The notes below the pieces were generated by a model. The model worked only from the letters and a program-made list of their open reading frames with translations, was not told where the DNA came from and did not search any database. From positions 2,108,001 through 2,172,000 of the forward strand of contig NZ_CP023315.3 of assembly GCF_002310375.3 (NCBI RefSeq): a DNA stretch of 64,000 nucleotides, in the 5' to 3' direction. Made by a program: the position numbers and the translations under genes. Source of the stretch: Caulobacter vibrioides. GTDB taxonomy: Bacteria > Pseudomonadota > Alphaproteobacteria > Caulobacterales > Caulobacteraceae. Shown here piece after piece: positions 11,085 through 19,214 of this stretch (position 1 is the stretch's first letter; each line of letters opens with the position of its first letter).

Positions 11085-11738
11085 ATGGACGACGCCTTCA
11101 CGGTCGACGATCTGATCGCCTGCTATGCGCGTGGCGTCTTTCCGATGGCCGACGCGCGAGAGGACGAGAGCCTCTTTCTGATCGATCCCGAGCGGCGCGG
11201 CGTGCTGCCGCTCGGGAGCTTTCACATTCCCAAGCGCCTGGCCCGTACGGTTCGCAATGGACCCTATGAGGTCCGCGTCGACACCGCCTTCGACGCAGTG
11301 ATCGAGAGCTGCGCCGCCTCGCGGCCCGGACGGCTGGACACCTGGATCAATCATCCGATCCAGCGGCTCTATGGCCAGCTCTACGCCCGTGGGCTCGCCC
11401 ATAGTGTCGAGACCTGGCTGGGGGATGAGCTCGTCGGCGGGCTCTACGGCGTGTCTCTGGGTGGAGCCTTCTTCGGCGAAAGCATGTTCTCGACCGCGCG
11501 GGACGCCAGCAAGGTGGCCCTCGTTCACCTCGTCGCGCGCTTGGTCGCGGGCGGGTACACGCTTTTGGACACTCAGTTTCTCACCGAGCATCTGTCGCAA
11601 TTTGGCGTCACGGAGATCAGCCGCGCGGACTATCGCCGTCGGCTGTCCAAGGCCCTGGCGACGCAGGGTGACTTTTACGGCTTGGCGGGCGCCTCGACGG
11701 GGATCGACTGCTTGCAGGCGATCAACCAGGCGTCATAG
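11085..11738 (+). CDS. aat: Leucyl/phenylalanyl-tRNA-protein transferase
   Basis: A 217-aa N-end-rule enzyme that adds Leu or Phe from aminoacyl-tRNA to proteins beginning with Arg or Lys, marking them for ClpS/ClpAP. It shows [10 protein letters not shown], the [10 protein letters not shown] segment, [25 protein letters not shown] and the DTQFLTEHL motif. Its last 64 bases overlap the 3' end of the convergent DUF2155 gene. It follows accC closely on the same strand. Confidence 0.95.
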
Positions 11739-12346
11739 ACCGGATGCTGCAGCGGGTTCAGGCCCGGCGAGCTCGCATACATCCAGCCCTTGTAGATCTG
11801 CCGTCCCGGCGGGGCGGCGCGCCCCGCTTGAGCCTTAGGCTGGGTGTCCACGACGACATAGGCCGTTGATTCCGGCGCGACCTCGTCGGCGGCCGCCGTT
11901 TCGCAGGCCCGCACCGTGAAGATCAGGGTCTTGTAGCGGATCGGCTGACCAATCGGGACCTCGAACCGCATCGTCTCGGTCGTGACCTTGTCCAGCGCCT
12001 GCAGGATCGCCACGGCGTAGCGCGCGCGCTTGGCGGGCTCGGCCGGCTTGGTCGCAGCCGCAGTCGCAGGCTTGGCCGGGGTCGAGGTTCCCGGCGCGGG
12101 CGACGCCGGCGGGTTCGGGCGCGTTGCGGCGGGCGCGACCTGCACGGGCTGGGCGGGACGGAGTTCTCCGGCCGACGGCGCCGACGCGGGTCTGGCGGCC
12201 GGCGCCACAGGCGCGGGGGTCGCTGCGGGCGCAGCGGCCGGGGCTTGTGCTGGGGGCGTCCCCGCCTGACGCGCGACAGCGATACCCGCCACGGCCAAAC
12301 CGGACAGGGCGCTGACGGCCGCGATCAGGGACGCCCGGCGGGCCAT
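11675..12346 (-). CDS. Exported DUF2155 protein
   Basis: A 223-aa protein of unknown function from a family found in alphaproteobacteria. The start ATG 12346 lies 4 bases after the upstream gene's stop, giving [10 protein letters not shown] and a clear signal peptide. The next 80 or so residues are Ala/Pro-rich and low-complexity. The conserved C-terminal domain (about 115-215) carries [45 protein letters not shown] and two cysteines. The tail overlaps aat by 64 bases in the opposite orientation. It probably acts in the envelope; no reaction can be assigned. Confidence 0.85.
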
Positions 12347-12350
12347 GTCC

Positions 12351-12746
12351 CTATTCCGGCGACCAGGCTTGATAGTCGCTCGTCGCCGCTTGACGTTCAC
12401 CGCCACGAGCCAGCGAACCCTGCGGACGCCAAGCGTGCACGGTGCCGGTCAGGTTAGGAAGCGTGTCCTTCTCCCATTCGCGGCGCTTCAGCGGCTCACG
12501 GGTCGGCGGCTCATCTAGCGTGTAGTGCAGCCAACCGCTCCACTCGGCCGGAACCTTCGAGGCCTCGGCGTAACCGTTGTAGATCACCCAGCGGCGCTTG
12601 CGCTCGTCGTAGCTGTCGCTGTTGTCGCGCGCCTCGAAGTAGCGGTTGCCGTAGTCATCTTGACCCACGAAGACGCCGCGACGGCCGATGTGGAAACGTT
12701 GACCCAAGGTCGCGCCGTTCCACCACGTGAAGATCGCTTTCAGCAC
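12351..12746 (-). CDS. NADH:ubiquinone oxidoreductase accessory subunit, NDUFA12 family
   Basis: About 131 aa, homologous to the mitochondrial complex I 17.2-kDa subunit, which alphaproteobacteria share. Conserved segments are FTWWNGATLG, VGQDDYGNRYFE, RRWVIYNGYAEASKVPAEWSGWLHYT and DEPPT. I chose the GTG at 12746 because AGGTG lies at good spacing and homologues begin just before KAIFTWWNG; a GTG at 12779 would add 11 residues but has no ribosome binding site. It is separated from the DUF2155 gene by 4 bases. This gene lies apart from any nuo operon in the window. Confidence 0.9.
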   Translation of the reverse strand: MLKAIFTWWNGATLGQRFHIGRRGVFVGQDDYGNRYFEARDNSDSYDERKRRWVIYNGYAEASKVPAEWSGWLHYTLDEPPTREPLKRREWEKDTLPNLTGTVHAWRPQGSLARGGERQAATSDYQAWSPE

Positions 12747-13024
12747 TACGTTCGCACCTGAATCTGCAAGGCTTTGCACGGCCGCGATAAGCGCGGCGAA
12801 GCGGGCGGACCATAGCGCCCCGCGCCGCCACCGTCCAGCCGCGCGCCTGTCGCGGCGAACTTCAACATCTTGTGGATTAGCGCCCCTTCACCCGCAACAT
12901 CTATTGAGAGGCGCGGATCAAGGTTCTAGCTTGTGGTGCGACCTTACGCCCTTCCCGGCCGCGTGGAATCACACGTTAGGGATTTGGTAAGCACTCAAGC
13001 TGGCACCCGGACCAGGAAACGCCC

Positions 13025-15748
13025 ATGCGCACCGCCGCCAAAGCCGCAGGTCTAGCTCCCGCGATGGAATGGCGGGACCTGGAAAGGGCTGACGGCATCG
13101 AGGTCGTCTCCGCGCCCGCCTCCTGGTCCGACGCCCGAGTCGAAGCCTGGCTTGACTGGGGTGGCGAGGTCGAACCAAAGGCGCCGCTCGGCGGCGGTCC
13201 CACGCGCTACGCCGGGCGGGTCGCCCAGCTTGGCCTGTCGCATGGTCTGTTTGGCGACAAGGCCGACGCCGACGCGTTCCGCGAGGCGTTGCTGACCACC
13301 ATGCTGTCCGGGATCGCCACGCCGACCGCCGGCCAGGCGGGCCTCCAGCTTTTGCCGGACATCACCGAGTTCGAATTCCAAAGTCAGGCGCGCGGCATTC
13401 TGGTTCGCCGTCGCAGCCGCGATCTGGCCGCCCAGGCGTCCGCGCGACTGAACGCTGCGCTTGAGCACGTCGCCGATGCTGTCCGCCGCTGCCAGGGCGA
13501 CAGCCGAGCCTGCTCGGATGTGCGCAAGAACCCGGCCCTGGCGCGGGCGGCGCGCAAGGCGCGCGAGCTCGGCGCGGACGATCAGACAATCCTCGACGCC
13601 ATCGCCATGGCCGATCAGCCCCGGGCCTCGCTGACCGGCCTGGCGCCCGATCGTGATCCGCCTGTGGTCGCCGCGGCCACCCGGCAGGGCGTGTCCGCCG
13701 GCGACGAAGCTGCAACCTTGGCCGCCCAGGTCGGCTGGGAGACGAGCGCCCTGACGCTGGCGCTGGCGCCGACCGACGCCGAAGCCTTGTCGCGCGGCGT
13801 GGCGATCGGCGCGGCGATTGACGCCAGCGCCTTCCTCGACGCCGACGGGTTCGATATCGAGCGCTTCACCTTCGTCTGCCACCTGTGGGCCACGGCTCTG
13901 GAGCTGGACCGTGGCGAGCGGCCTGCTCGGCTCTCGCTGGCGGGCGTGGGCGACTGCCTGTTGAGCCAGGGCTACAGCCAAACCAGCGTCGAAGGCCGCG
14001 ATGGCGCCGCCGCCTTGTGGGCCCTGGCCGTCGGCGCTGCGCTTTCCGCCAGTGCGGAAGCGGCGACCGCCCTGGGGCAGGACCCCATTTTCGCCCAGGA
14101 CCGCCAAGGCGTCCTGAAGACCTTGGCCGAACGCCGGGTCCGCGCCGCCGCACTGCGCTCGGCGCTGGCGACGGAAGCCGCAGCCGCGCTCGCGACGGCG
14201 CACGCCCTCGCCCGCAAGCACGGTTTGCGCTCGGCCGGCCTGGTCGGCCCCTTCGTCGACGCCGAGGCGACCCTGCGTCTTGGCGGCGCGCCCGTGGGTC
14301 CGGCGGGCGCAATGGCGCCGGTTTCGGTGGCCCAGACGGCCGACGGCTTCCTGCTGCCAACGTTCAGCGCCGCCGCCTTCGAGGCGCTATCCTCCGAGGC
14401 CGTCGACCTTGACGCGGCCCGTCGCCACGCGCTCGGCCATGGATCGCTGGCCGAAAGCCCCGCGATCGACCACGCCATGCTTCAGGCGCGCGGCTTCACC
14501 GCCCACGAGATCGAGAAGGCCGAAAACGCCTTGCGTGAGCATCACGGGATCCGCGCGGCGTTCGCCCCGTCCGTGGTGGGCGCCGGCTTCCTGCGCGACG
14601 TCCTGGGCGCGTCTGCGGAGGACGTCGCCCGTCGCGACTTCGACACCCTGGCCTTCGCCGACTTTTCGGTTGCGGAGATCGCAGCGGCCGAACGCCATGC
14701 CCTGGGCGCGGGCACGCTGGGCGACTGCGAGGCGTTGAACCCCGACCTGCGCGAGGCCTTCCGCTCCGTGGAGAGCGCGTCGTTCCCCGAACGCCTGTCC
14801 ATGCTCGCGGCCGTGGAAAGCTTCGCCTGCCTGCCGACGGCGGTGACGGTGTTGATCCCGCACGATGCGCGTCCGGCCGACGCGGTGCGCGCCCAGGCCG
14901 CGGCGGCCAGGGCCGGTGTTCGCGCCCTGCGCCTGCAGCGCGCGCCGACGCCCGCCGACTTCAAGCTGGACCTGCCCGAAGAGCCTGCGGCCGAAGCGCC
15001 CCGCCCCGCTCCGGCGCGAGAACCGGTGGTGACCGAGCGCGTCGTCGAGCGGATCGTCGAGCGCGACCGCTCGCGCCGTCGCCTCCCCGACCGTCGCAAG
15101 GGCTACATCCAGAAGGCGGCCGTGGGCGGGCACAAGGTCTATCTGCACACCGGCGAGTACGAGGACGGCGAACTGGGTGAGCTGTTCATCGACATGCACA
15201 AGGAAGGCGCGGCCTTCCGGAGCCTGATGAACAATTTCGCCATCGCCGTCTCGCTGGGTCTGCAGCACGGCGTGCCGCTGGACGAGTTCGTCGACGCCTT
15301 CGTCTACACCAAGTTCGAGCCGGCGGGTCCGGTCACGGGCAATGACTCGATCAAGTCCGCGACCTCCATCCTGGACTACATTTTCCGCGAGTTGGGCGTT
15401 TCGTACCTTGGCCGCGACGACCTCGCCAATGGCGACCCCGGCGAGTTCAACGCCGATGGCCTTGGGGCCGGCAAACGCCTCGCCGAGGACGAGCTGCTGG
15501 ACGACGACGCCGATCCGGTCCCCGCCAGCCGCTTCATTTCCAAGGGCTTTTCGCGCGGCGCCACGCCCGACAATCTGGTGTTCGCCAGCTTCGGTCGGCG
15601 TCGGTTGGAAGGCGCTGACCGGCCCGGGGCGGATGGTGAGATGTGCCCAGCGTGCGGGGACCTTTCCCTCGTGCGGCGGGGCGGCTTGACCGTCTGCGAC
15701 ACCTGCGGGGCGCAGTCGGAACGCCCAGGCCCGATGGCGTCCTCTTGA
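13025..15748 (+). CDS. Degenerate class II (B12-type) ribonucleotide reductase paralogue, probable pseudoenzyme
   Basis: A 907-aa protein colinear with NrdJ but shorter (family about 1200 aa) and stripped of catalytic features. NrdJ-like traces run along it: the [18 protein letters not shown] region (about 155-172), [13 protein letters not shown] (276-288), a GYANLG-like loop (about 303-318), [18 protein letters not shown] (465-482), [11 protein letters not shown] (490-500) and the FAD-segment before TLGDCEAL (565-570). The TSCPD-type C-terminal domain (about 694-800) is well preserved, as is the final Cys4 ribbon CPAC/CDTC (874-877, 891-894). Missing are the NPCSE motif, the finger-loop cysteine motif (DDTACNLASLN in NrdJ, replaced by an Ala-rich run about 255-275) and the central barrel cysteines. 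It cannot plausibly reduce ribonucleotides. The frame is intact and codon use matches its neighbours, so it is a maintained gene and not a fresh pseudogene. Confidence 0.85.
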
Positions 15749-15819
15749 GCGCGTTTGGTTGGCGTTAAGCTTGCTGGGTCAGGGTGGATCCTGCCTCTTC
15801 GCTCGGAACGTGCGCCAGA

Positions 15820-16320
15820 ATGAAACCGATCGCCCAATTCGCAGCCGCCGCCCTTGGCGTGGCGTTGGTCGCCGCGACGCCCGCGAGCGCCCAGAACGCC
15901 GGCCAGATCGCGGCCGTGCGAAACGGCGCGCACTGCCCGCGTTGCAACCTCTTCCAGGCGGATGTGTCCAACCTGACCTTGAAGGGCAAGAACCTCGCCG
16001 GCGCGCGCCTTCGCCAGGCGGACTTGTCGACCGCCGTCATGAACCGCAGCAGCTTCGCCAGCGGCGACCTTAGGGACGTCAACGCCTATGGCGGGGTCTT
16101 TACGGGGGCCAGTTTCGCGCGCGCGGACCTGACGAACGCCAGCTTCGTCGGCGCCTATCTGCAGGGCGCGAACTTCACGGGCGCAAGGCTCGCGGGCGTC
16201 AACTTCTCGGGCGCCGAAATGGGCCGCGCCGCGGGCCTCAAGCAGAGCCAGTTGAATCAGGCCTGCGGCGACGACTCCACGTTGTTGCCGCGTGGCCTTT
16301 CGATCCCGCGCTGCCGTTAA
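15820..16320 (+). CDS. Exported pentapeptide-repeat protein, copy 1
   Basis: A 166-aa protein. The start at 15820 gives a clean signal peptide (MKPIAQFAAAALGVALVAAT, cleavage after PASAQ). A CPRC motif follows shortly after, then a run of A(D/N)LXX-type pentapeptide repeats that should form a short right-handed quadrilateral beta-helix. It ends in GLKQSQLNQACGDD...LP...PRC. Pentapeptide-repeat folds are used for protein binding; no target can be named. It is paralogous to the next gene, sharing the N-terminal Cys pair and the C-terminal cap. Confidence 0.85.
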   Translation: MKPIAQFAAAALGVALVAATPASAQNAGQIAAVRNGAHCPRCNLFQADVSNLTLKGKNLAGARLRQADLSTAVMNRSSFASGDLRDVNAYGGVFTGASFARADLTNASFVGAYLQGANFTGARLAGVNFSGAEMGRAAGLKQSQLNQACGDDSTLLPRGLSIPRCR

Positions 16321-16414
16321 ATCCCCGTCATTACCGCAATTTAAGTGGTCTCTACCCCTCCGACGGTTCAAACCGTAACTCACACAGTCGCGTATGGACT
16401 GCACGGAGAAGTCG

Positions 16415-17299
16415 ATGTCCCGCTTGGGCGTTTCCATCGCCGCCTTGACGCTGAGCCTGCTGGCGATGACCGGTCAGGCGAGCGCCCGGACCGAAGATAA
16501 GGACGTCGCCAAGCTGACCTCCTTTGGCGGCATGTGCGCCAACTGCGACCTCGCGGGTCGCAAGCTGATGAACGCCAAGTTCACGGGCGCCAACTTCACC
16601 AAGGCCGTTCTGATCGGGGCCGACCTGCGCGGCGCGATCTTCTATGGGTCGCAGTTCAGCTGGGCCGATCTGAGCCGCGCCGATCTGCGCGGCGCCGAGA
16701 TGCGCGGCGCCAACTTCACCCGCGCCAACTTCACCGACGCGCGTATGTCCGGCGTCGAGAGCAGCGGCGCCAACTTCGCTCAGGCGACTCTGGTCCGCGT
16801 GGACCTGTCTTCGGCGGAGCTGCACGCCGCCAACATGGCCGGCGCCAACCTGCAGAAGGCGCGCTTCGCCAACGCCGAACTGATCGCCGCCAATCTGTCG
16901 GGCGCCAACGCCCGCGACGCCGACTTCTCGAACGCCGACATCAACAACGCCAACTTCCAGGGCGCGCGCTTCGACGGGGCCCGTTTCCACAACGCCGACA
17001 TGACCGGCTCGAACCTGCGCGGCGCCATCTTCAACGGCGCGGACTTCCGTAATGCGGACCTGACGATGGTCAATCTCAGCGGCGCGGATCTGTCCAGCGC
17101 CCGGGGCCTTGATCAGGAGCAGTTGGACGACGCCTGCGGCGACAGCGCCACGCGCCTGCCTTCGGGGCTGAATGTCCGCACTTGCAACGGTCTGCGTGGC
17201 GGTCAGCACTTCATGCTGTTACGCGCGGTTCCCAAAGCGCCGCCCGCGCCCGCTGCGCCCCCGGCCCCGCCGAAACCACCCAAGCCTCCGAAACAGTGA
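16415..17299 (+). CDS. Exported pentapeptide-repeat protein, copy 2
   Basis: A 294-aa protein. ATG 16415 is chosen because GGAGAAG precedes it and a signal peptide follows directly (cleavage near GQASA). A CANC motif comes next, then a long tract of A(N/D)(L/F)XX repeats (about 50-230), roughly twice as long as in its neighbour. A cap, GLDQEQLDDACGDSATRLPSGL, is nearly the same as in copy 1. The last 20 or so residues are a Pro/Ala/Lys tail absent from copy 1. A perfect terminator follows. The pair arose by tandem duplication followed by repeat expansion (inference). Confidence 0.87.
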   Translation: MSRLGVSIAALTLSLLAMTGQASARTEDKDVAKLTSFGGMCANCDLAGRKLMNAKFTGANFTKAVLIGADLRGAIFYGSQFSWADLSRADLRGAEMRGANFTRANFTDARMSGVESSGANFAQATLVRVDLSSAELHAANMAGANLQKARFANAELIAANLSGANARDADFSNADINNANFQGARFDGARFHNADMTGSNLRGAIFNGADFRNADLTMVNLSGADLSSARGLDQEQLDDACGDSATRLPSGLNVRTCNGLRGGQHFMLLRAVPKAPPAPAAPPAPPKPPKPPKQ

Positions 17300-17375: not shown

Positions 17376-19214
17376 TTACACCTTGATGGGCGGCGCGGTC
17401 CGGATGTGCAGTTCCTTCAACTGCTTGTCGAGCACGTTGGCCGGGGCGTTCATCAGGAGGTCCTGGCCCTGCTGGTTCAGCGGGAAGGCGATGACTTCGC
17501 GGATGGCGACCTGGTCGGCCAGCAGCATGACGATACGGTCGATGCCGGGCGCCAGACCACCGTGCGGCGGCGCGCCGTAGCGGAACGCGTTCAGCATGCC
17601 GCCGAACTGCTCCTCGACCACTTCGGGACCATAGCCGGCCGTAGCGAAGGCCTTGAGCATGATCTCGGGCTTGTGGTTCCGGATCGCGCCCGAGCACAGC
17701 TCGTAGCCGTTGCACACGATGTCGTACTGGTAGGCGCGGATGGTCAGAGGATCCTGGGTCTCCAGGGCCTCCAGACCGCCTTGCGGCATCGAGAACGGAT
17801 TGTGCGAGAAGTCGACCTTCTTCTCTTCCTCGTTCCACTCGAACATCGGGAAGTCGACGATCCAGCAGAACTTGAACTGGTTTTCGTCGACCAGCTTCAG
17901 CTCCGTGCCGACGCGGGTGCGCGCCAGGCCGGCGAATTTGGCGAACACGGCAGGATCGCCGGCCACGAAGAACGCGGCGTCGCCGGCGCCCAGGCCCAGC
18001 GACTCCATCAGGGCTTGCGCCGGCTCGCCCAGGTTCTTGGCGATCGGGCCACCCCATGAACCTTGGTCTTCCGACCAGAACACGTAGCCCAGGCCTGGCT
18101 GGCCTTCGCCCTGGGCCCAGCTGTTCATGCGATCGCAGAAAGCGCGGCTGCCGCCGGTCGGCGCGGGGATGGCCCACACCTGGTTCTTGGCGTCGGCGCC
18201 CAGGATCTTGGCGAACAGGCCAAAGCCGCCGTCACGGAAGTGCTCCGAGACGTTGGCCATCTTGATCGGGTTGCGCAGGTCCGGCTTGTCGCTGCCGTAC
18301 CAGGCCATCGACTGGGCGTAGGTCAGGCGCTCGAAGCCCTTGTGTTCGAACGATTGGCCAAAGTCGTTGGTGAAGGTATGCGTGCCGCTGATCGGCGACA
18401 CCGGCTTGCCGTTGCTGAACTCCTCGAACACGCCATGCATGACGGGCTCGATGGCCGCGAAGACGTCTTCCTGGGTGACGAAGCTCATCTCGACGTCGAG
18501 CTGGTAGAACTCCAGGCTACGGTCGGCGCGCAGGTCTTCGTCGCGGAAGCATGGCGCGATCTGGAAGTAGCGGTCGAAGCCCGAGACCATCAGCAGTTGC
18601 TTGAACTGCTGGGGCGCCTGCGGCAGCGCGTAGAACTTTTCGGGGTGCAGACGCGAGGGCACCAGGAAGTCGCGCGCGCCTTCCGGCGAGCTGGCGGTCA
18701 GGATCGGCGTCTGGAACTCGTTGAAGCCCTGCGCGAACATGCGGTTGCGGATCGACTGGATCACGCGCGAGCGCAGGACGATGTTCTTGTGCAGCGTCTC
18801 GCGACGCAGGTCGAGATAACGGTGCTTAAGGCGGATCTCTTCGGGATAGTCGGGCTCGCCGAAGACGGGCAGCGGCAGCTCAGCGGCCTCGGACAGCACC
18901 TCGACGGCCGAGACGCGGATCTCGATCTCGCCGGTCGGCAGGTTCGGGTTCACGACGCTGGCGTCACGGGCGATGACTTCGCCGTCCACGCGGATCACGC
19001 TCTCGGCGCGCAGGCGCTCGACAACGTTGAAACCCGGGGTTTCGGGGTGCAGCACCAGCTGGGTCAGACCATAGTGGTCGCGCAGGTCGATGAAGACCAG
19101 ACCGCCGTGGTCGCGCTTGCGGTGGATCCAGCCCGACAGACGCACGGCCGAGCCGGTGTCGGAAGCGCGCAGGGCGCCGCAGTTGTGGGTGCGATAGGCG
19201 TGCATGGCGGTCAT
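17376..19214 (-). CDS. aspS: Aspartyl-tRNA synthetase
   Basis: A class II aminoacyl-tRNA synthetase of the bacterial type (612 aa). It has an N-terminal anticodon-binding OB fold beginning [10 protein letters not shown], motif 2 ([23 protein letters not shown], of which FRDED is diagnostic), the bacterial GAD insertion domain in the middle (about 300-420), and motif 3 [13 protein letters not shown] near the end. Translation may start at the ATG at 19205 (MHAYRT), three codons later. It is downstream of tpiA on the same strand, separated by 121 bases with a hairpin. Confidence 0.97.

Follow-up and report, generated by a model that had tools for sequence, protein, structure and literature searches.

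A probable NrdJ orthologue of Caulobacter vibrioides that lacks the reductase residues and is conserved in its TSCPD domain

Introduction

Catalytically inactive homologues of the large subunit of ribonucleotide reductase (RNR) occur in betaherpesviruses, where they are RNR-derived pseudoenzymes with a new role. The C-terminal domain of an active NrdJ holds six cysteines, a set of four attributed to zinc and a pair attributed to electron shuttling. This domain (CRD), which in NrdJd of Stackebrandtia nassauensis ends in a zinc ribbon, drives the formation of tetramers and hexamers with dATP or dGTP, direct binding assays having been inconclusive (PMC5704485). The same source describes NrdJa and NrdJb of Pseudomonas aeruginosa, in which the C-terminal domain is a separate protein, NrdJb, that serves an active NrdJa. 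The RNR promoters of P. aeruginosa each carry two NrdR boxes, one of which overlaps the -10 element (PMC4409342). For Caulobacter crescentus, the gene CCNA_01966 has been named a vitamin B12-dependent ribonucleotide reductase (PMC5869019) and is shown as NrdJ among the nucleotide-reduction proteins in a figure on B12 (PMC6538847). Here we describe the presumably corresponding locus of Caulobacter vibrioides, whose product is colinear with NrdJ and lacks the catalytic cysteines.

Results

The encoded protein is colinear with NrdJ and lacks its catalytic residues

The window, by which we mean the whole stretch of 64,000 nt of C. vibrioides DNA that was analysed (NZ_CP023315.3, GCF_002310375.3, positions 2,108,001-2,172,000), carries at 13025..15748 (+ strand) the coding sequence of a non-catalytic NrdJ orthologue of 907 aa, which starts with ATG and has no internal stops. 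A profile search with this protein gave four stretches of match to the model for B12-dependent RNR, NF005736, with a score of 404 bits where the model's cut-off is 1737; the best of these stretches aligns residues 450-853 with positions 717-1132 of the 1222 in the model. The TSCPD domain (PF12637) scored 39.2 bits, above its curated Pfam cut-off of 22.8, and 43.0 bits as an isolated segment, and the RNR barrel (PF02867) remained below threshold at 10.4 bits against a cut-off of 23.9. A related NrdJ model, NF005122/PRK06556, to which the S. nassauensis enzyme presumably belongs, matches residues 591-897, and the match to the nearest solved chains, 7b9p and 7b9q (B12-dependent RNR, 925 residues), ends at chain residue 912. 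No credible match of the TSCPD domain was found among solved structures, so that a nucleotide site in it is only putative, which counts against the mechanism considered below.

Along the + strand, the gene encodes an N-terminal helical remnant (residues 61-101, 13205..13327), followed by deletion of the next strand, which in canonical NrdJ carries the first barrel cysteine; a retained helical insert (residues 140-198, 13442..13618); a barrel-side remnant (residues 263-375, 13811..14149), which comes after the replaced NPCSE and TACNLASLN positions; a helical-repeat insert whose retention is seen in the alignment (residues 446-565, 14360..14719); the TSCPD domain as the near-invariant core (residues 684-803, 15074..15433); and a C-terminal zinc ribbon (residues 869-899, 15629..15721), in which the zinc-type cysteines 874, 877, 891 and 894 are kept and two shuttle cysteines are gone. 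The first of the two inserts weakly resembles the N-terminal helices of YebC/TACO1 (PF20772), with all scores below the curated cut-off of 36 bits: the canonical proteins L034, L041 and L055 gave E values of 3e-6, 3.2e-5 and 2.5e-4 (21.9-28.1 bits), and the window protein, at 0.088 and 13.7 bits, was not assigned to the family.

Two sets of homologues were aligned at the residue level. The non-catalytic set comprised 68 homologues without NPCSE, of which 30 (the window included) were the best family-search matches, all in the window's genus, and 38 came from wider stretches; the canonical set comprised 31 NrdJ of the same order, L101 and the 30 top-scoring proteins, and is biased toward well-kept enzymes because 30 of the 31 were picked as top scorers. 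The radical cysteine of the NPCSE finger loop, barrel cysteine B and each of the C-terminal shuttle cysteines were found in 0 of 68 non-catalytic and 31 of 31 canonical proteins. Barrel cysteine A was likewise present in 31 of 31 canonical proteins and in a single non-catalytic row (1/68); that row is L087, not the window, and its cysteine is a lone cell inside a gap, doubtful and probably misaligned. None of the 68 rows has a cysteine at the radical position or up to four columns away from it, and in five rows a cysteine lies near the barrel B position, never on it. The four zinc-type cysteines were retained in 65 of 68 non-catalytic proteins (L067, L073 and L074 lack them) and in 31 of 31 canonical ones. 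Canonical NrdJ of this order has six C-terminal cysteines, and one canonical protein, L033, reads SPCSE in place of NPCSE. In the window protein much of the barrel around the missing cysteines is deleted as well. As judged from this alignment, the stripped protein has none of the residues on which the known mechanism of reductase chemistry depends, and it departs from class II RNR in its radical cysteine, its redox barrel cysteines and its score against the NF005736 cut-off. The ribbon is incapable of disulfide transfer of the known type because the cysteine pair that aligns with the shuttle is lost.

The TSCPD-bearing frame also lacks NPCSE at 15 further loci of the order (L223-L237). Thirteen of these have a single frame of 774-1026 aa; two are split and were checked in the downstream half alone. 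In these two, L223 (genome G011) and L224 (G347), the TSCPD part is a separate frame of 432 or 383 aa. Among 80 named loci NPCSE (or SPCSE) is present in 56 and absent in 24, namely 23 Caulobacterales records, together with Maricaulis salignorans; of these 24 records, five are incomplete, and eight are weaker evidence because the position is covered by a tblastn match to the window in only 16.

Most of what the preliminary description said of this protein was borne out: the intact frame colinear with class II RNR, the absence of the NPCSE segment and of the radical and barrel cysteines (to which barrel deletions are now added), the descent of a pseudoenzyme from NrdJ, with the catalytic cysteines lost throughout the 68 homologues apart from the doubtful L087 cell, and the location of the conserved part in the C-terminal region. 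The loss that it reported is conserved among orthologues. It had also raised the possibilities that the catalytic cysteines are displaced and that NrdJ similarity is confined to the C-terminal 200 residues; no displaced cysteine was seen beside the radical position, and both the profile and the solved-chain matches extend well past that region. Its statement that the TSCPD domain and a Cys4 ribbon are well kept holds for the domain and the four zinc-type cysteines and does not extend to the shuttle pair of the six-cysteine canonical ribbon, and with that pair lost in 68 of 68 rows its suggestion of disulfide transfer falls.

The gene occupies the ancestral nrdJ locus

Non-catalytic and active nrdJ genes stand in a common gene order, accB-accC-aat-DUF2155(-)-NDUFA12(-)-nrdJ-pentapeptide genes-aspS(-). 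In the window, two members of this conserved locus, a DUF2155 gene (11675..12406, - strand) and a divergent NDUFA12-family gene (12351..12779, - strand), lie on the left, and an aspS-like class II tRNA synthetase gene (17376..19214, - strand) closes the locus on the right. Two pentapeptide-repeat genes (15784-16320 and 16394-17299, + strand) lie downstream of nrdJ, as at most non-catalytic and active loci of the order and in genome G356. With some stretches ending at contig ends, NDUFA12 and DUF2155 adjoin 35 of 38 non-catalytic and 11 of 22 canonical loci, pentapeptide genes stand beside 35 of 38 and 19 of 22, and aspS is present at 31 of 38 and 9 of 22, respectively. Named Rhodospirillales, Hyphomicrobiales and SAR116 loci keep parts of the left-side order; at the other named loci it was not seen within the sequence covered.

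A single TSCPD domain and no second NrdJ were found in the window's genome (4.14 Mb, one contig). Because the gene encodes the sole NrdJ of the genome and stands at the ancestral nrdJ locus, it is an orthologue rather than a paralogue, and both the shared genomic locus and the colinear HMM stretches agree with NrdJ orthology. The preliminary description had called the protein a paralogue that might act with the true NrdJ as its partner or serve as a decoy for it; neither proposal survives in a genome where no other NrdJ was found. C. crescentus and C. vibrioides are, we assume, one species, and a C. vibrioides record (L103) shows 95% identity in the best segment. From this record and the single copy in the window's genome, we infer that CCNA_01966 is the orthologue of the window gene. 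Judged by sequence, the label of B12-dependent reductase or NrdJ that two papers give to the C. crescentus gene is probably wrong, a misannotation that had been foreseen; among the literature matches listed, no paper was found that describes CCNA_01966 or a protein of the window type as inactive.

Purifying selection is centred on the TSCPD domain

Mean segment identities were calculated over 34 of the 68 non-catalytic rows and all 31 canonical ones. The TSCPD segment (684-803) averaged 88.6% identity within the non-catalytic set, 88.7% within the canonical set and 83.1% between them, whereas the segments outside it averaged 20-48% within the non-catalytic set versus 39-82% within the canonical set. 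The insert at residues 140-198 is equally conserved in the two (47.8% and 48.1%, respectively). Comparison of the window gene with seven congeners gave dN/dS values of 0.08-0.16 for the whole gene and 0-0.02 for TSCPD. In the same seven comparisons dS in TSCPD (15074-15433) was 0.15-0.60, below the whole-gene value of 0.60-0.84. The identity pattern of TSCPD and the low dN/dS indicate that this is neither a pseudogene nor a case of general relaxation; by these measures the gene is under purifying selection, centred on the 120-aa TSCPD domain. The domain is also 70-73% identical (tblastn) between the window protein and proteins of about 280 aa in genomes G533 and G444, and since the G+C content of the respective stretches is 27.5% and 29.2%, compared with 66.4% for the window, the constraint appears to act on protein rather than on DNA.

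NrdR-box-like sites precede the gene

Upstream regions were scanned for pairs of matches, 30-33 bp apart, to an assumed 16-bp NrdR-box consensus. In the window a pair was identified that consists of CTTCAACATCTTGTGG (12860..12875) and CCGCAACATCTATTGA (12892..12907), neither assigned to a strand, 32 bp apart from start to start; 117 bases separate the end of the second site from the start codon of the stripped gene. Its score of 17.5 out of 24 was matched by 0 of 300 shuffles (p 1/301), and it is the top pair of the 64-kb window, the next scoring 15.0. The genome's own nrdA and nrdB carry pairs that score 17.5 and 16.5 (p 1/301 each), and the upstream regions of its nrdR, penta1, aspS and accB gave p values of 0.89, 0.94, 0.98 and 0.28, respectively. 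An earlier, cruder scan for single sites showed little contrast to shuffles. By sequence, the window gene is preceded by a predicted box pair of the kind that marks the NrdR regulon, and the predicted sites common to it and to nrdA and nrdB speak for a possible role together with NrdAB.

The scan was extended to the other loci, with 100 shuffles each; related loci are not independent, so the following counts (in families f1-f5 of the order, f1 being Caulobacteraceae) should be read accordingly. A pair at p<=0.01 precedes 53 of 68 non-catalytic loci (48/50 in f1, 5/5 in f3, 0/11 in f4 and 0/2 in f2) versus only 6 of 30 canonical loci (6/19 in f5 and 0/11 in f4) and none of the 127 control upstream regions (accB 0/36, aspS 0/37, penta1 0/54). 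In the 20 listed stretches of f1, the best pair lies at or just before the gene start as judged by frame coordinates. Two of the 15 further loci passed, L233 (f3) and L236 (f2), giving 1/7 in f2, 1/4 in f3, 0/2 in f4 and 0/2 in f1. L235 (f1) failed the scan, and L223 (f1) and L224 (f3) offer no fair test, because the gene is split in both and the scan started from its downstream half.

The two halves of NrdJ are lost separately

A homologue of the stripped gene was found in 189 of 199 genomes of the family. Across the order, NrdB is present in 291 of 299 genomes, and the NF005736 cut-off is passed in 64 of 299, all in f4 or f5. The window's genome has its own class I RNR, with an NrdA of 627 aa that carries the SCFL, NLCSE and CCLSS motifs and an NrdB of 347 aa.

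A survey of the class identified TSCPD in 85 of 133 genomes, 75 of them in frames of 1180-1364 aa. Stripped forms also occur outside the order: the frame with TSCPD is 278 aa long in G533 (a single contig of 1.21 Mb), 282 aa in G444 (1.4 Mb), 530 aa in G462 and 667 aa in G535. All four genes adjoin NDUFA12, and the forms in G533 and G444 (L240 and L241) are stand-alone TSCPD proteins at the nrdJ locus. No full-length NF005736 match was found in these four genomes, each of which has a class I NrdA 62-70% identical to that of the window's genome with NrdB adjoining, the G462 stretch reaching only the end of NrdB. Further short frames were seen in G507 and G453 and, next to a contig edge in each case, in G499 and G461; the frame in G534 is cut by the contig. 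The reverse case is found in G356 (L100, 8008-10713), whose catalytic NrdJ has NPCSE and a six-cysteine ribbon and lacks TSCPD and the helical insert; TSCPD was not found anywhere in that genome.

On a tree of neighbour genes, two changes of state were needed within the order. The AU test did not reject a single non-catalytic clade there (p 0.912), and we therefore claim several losses in the class and not two within the order. With outgroups, four changes were needed in the class, three of them forced by starred branches, in a tree that joins the long branches L240 and L241 and from which L242 was dropped for having too few columns.

We also considered TSCPD as compensation for a missing ATP-cone. 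Matches to the ATP-cone were confined to frames of 152-260 aa (NrdR-sized) in 34 of 34 genomes, among them G356 and 12 genomes without TSCPD/NrdJ (eight shown, four presumed so from weak best matches). This co-occurrence rule is unsupported, NrdA and NrdB having gained no ATP-cone where TSCPD is absent; one form of the nucleotide-sensor idea has thus failed its prediction.

Discussion

Taken together, it is likely that the window gene is a direct orthologue of nrdJ, stripped of its reductase and retained for another part of the protein. The reading that we prefer is that of a pseudoenzyme kept for a reductase-independent function of TSCPD in deoxynucleotide metabolism, although it has to accommodate observations of another kind: the gene was not found in some nearly complete f1 and f4 genomes and is dispensable there, the ribbon is lost in three of 68 non-catalytic rows, and the boxes were not found in f4 and at most f2 loci.

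A redundant nrdJ that erodes after takeover by NrdAB, with TSCPD conservation as a mere lag, would explain the large diverged and Ala-rich parts, the genomes in which the gene was not found, the split frames of L223 and L224 and the single stop inside the match at 11 places among those listed. It would not be expected to remain stop-free at most places among the matches listed, to show a dN/dS as low as that of the whole gene and above all of TSCPD, or to hold that domain as constant among non-catalytic forms as among active enzymes, and we regard decay as very improbable. Still less credible is continued enzymatic activity, as an unusual ribonucleotide reductase or as a redox protein acting through the C-terminal ribbon, even with 404 bits of similarity to NF005736 and four C-terminal cysteines retained: the score lies far short of the 1737 cut-off, the radical and redox cysteines are gone in 68 of 68 rows save one doubtful cell, barrel strands are deleted and the ribbon itself is missing in three rows.

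A role of TSCPD outside nucleotide metabolism has somewhat more in its favour and is nonetheless unlikely. The zinc ribbon and the YebC/TACO1-like insert could point to RNA or ribosome contact, the resemblance to PF20772 being clearer in canonical proteins than in the window, and complex I assembly might be suggested by NDUFA12, which adjoins active and non-catalytic loci alike. However, the YebC-like stretch covers merely some 31-33 residues, the adjacency of NDUFA12 is equally explained by ancestry, and the NrdR-box-like sites common with nrdA and nrdB tie the gene to dNTP supply.

How a retained TSCPD might act in deoxynucleotide metabolism can be outlined by analogy. The TSCPD module of NrdJ would have a job separable from nucleotide reduction, one that remains useful where class I NrdAB supplies deoxynucleotides. 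If the TSCPD/ribbon part is the counterpart of the C-terminal domain that drives dATP- or dGTP-dependent oligomerisation in the active relative, the stripped protein could form oligomers in response to (deoxy)nucleotides and so assist or regulate dNTP supply, with NrdR controlling its expression jointly with that of NrdAB; we put this forward tentatively, as the likeliest mechanism. In the wider and equally speculative form of the proposal, alphaproteobacterial NrdJ would be two-functional: its TSCPD module would regulate dNTP supply independently, in response to deoxynucleotides, and would persist after the reductase is lost. The catalytic half would have been lost separately in several lineages and the regulator kept in place, in Caulobacteraceae under NrdR, its target being either class I RNR itself or the repressor of that enzyme.

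The findings probably correct the annotation of a gene of the model organism C. crescentus. They also amount to a natural experiment, since some genomes have kept the TSCPD half of NrdJ without the catalytic half and G356 the catalytic half without TSCPD; this makes the role of TSCPD directly testable in a genetically tractable organism. If TSCPD does sense deoxynucleotides, it would provide a route of dNTP control where the ATP-cone is found only in NrdR-sized frames.

Of the related systems described, canonical alphaproteobacterial NrdJ (NF005736/PRK07562) shares with the window protein the locus, the domain order, a near-identical TSCPD, the helical inserts and the zinc-type cysteines, whereas the window protein is about 300 residues shorter, has lost much of the barrel and lacks the NPCSE finger loop, both barrel cysteines and the redox pair. 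The NrdJd CRD of S. nassauensis is similar as a C-terminal region that ends in a zinc ribbon (PMC5704485) but differs in that the window protein has neither the redox pair nor the catalytic domain. NrdJb of P. aeruginosa resembles the forms of about 280 aa in G533 and G444 in being a C-terminal domain made as a separate protein; unlike NrdJb, which as described there works for an active NrdJa (PMC5704485), these forms occur with class I NrdA only, NF005736 finding no class II catalytic subunit in either genome. Finally, the RNR homologues of betaherpesviruses, although also RNR-derived pseudoenzymes, are class I, viral and of unrelated origin.
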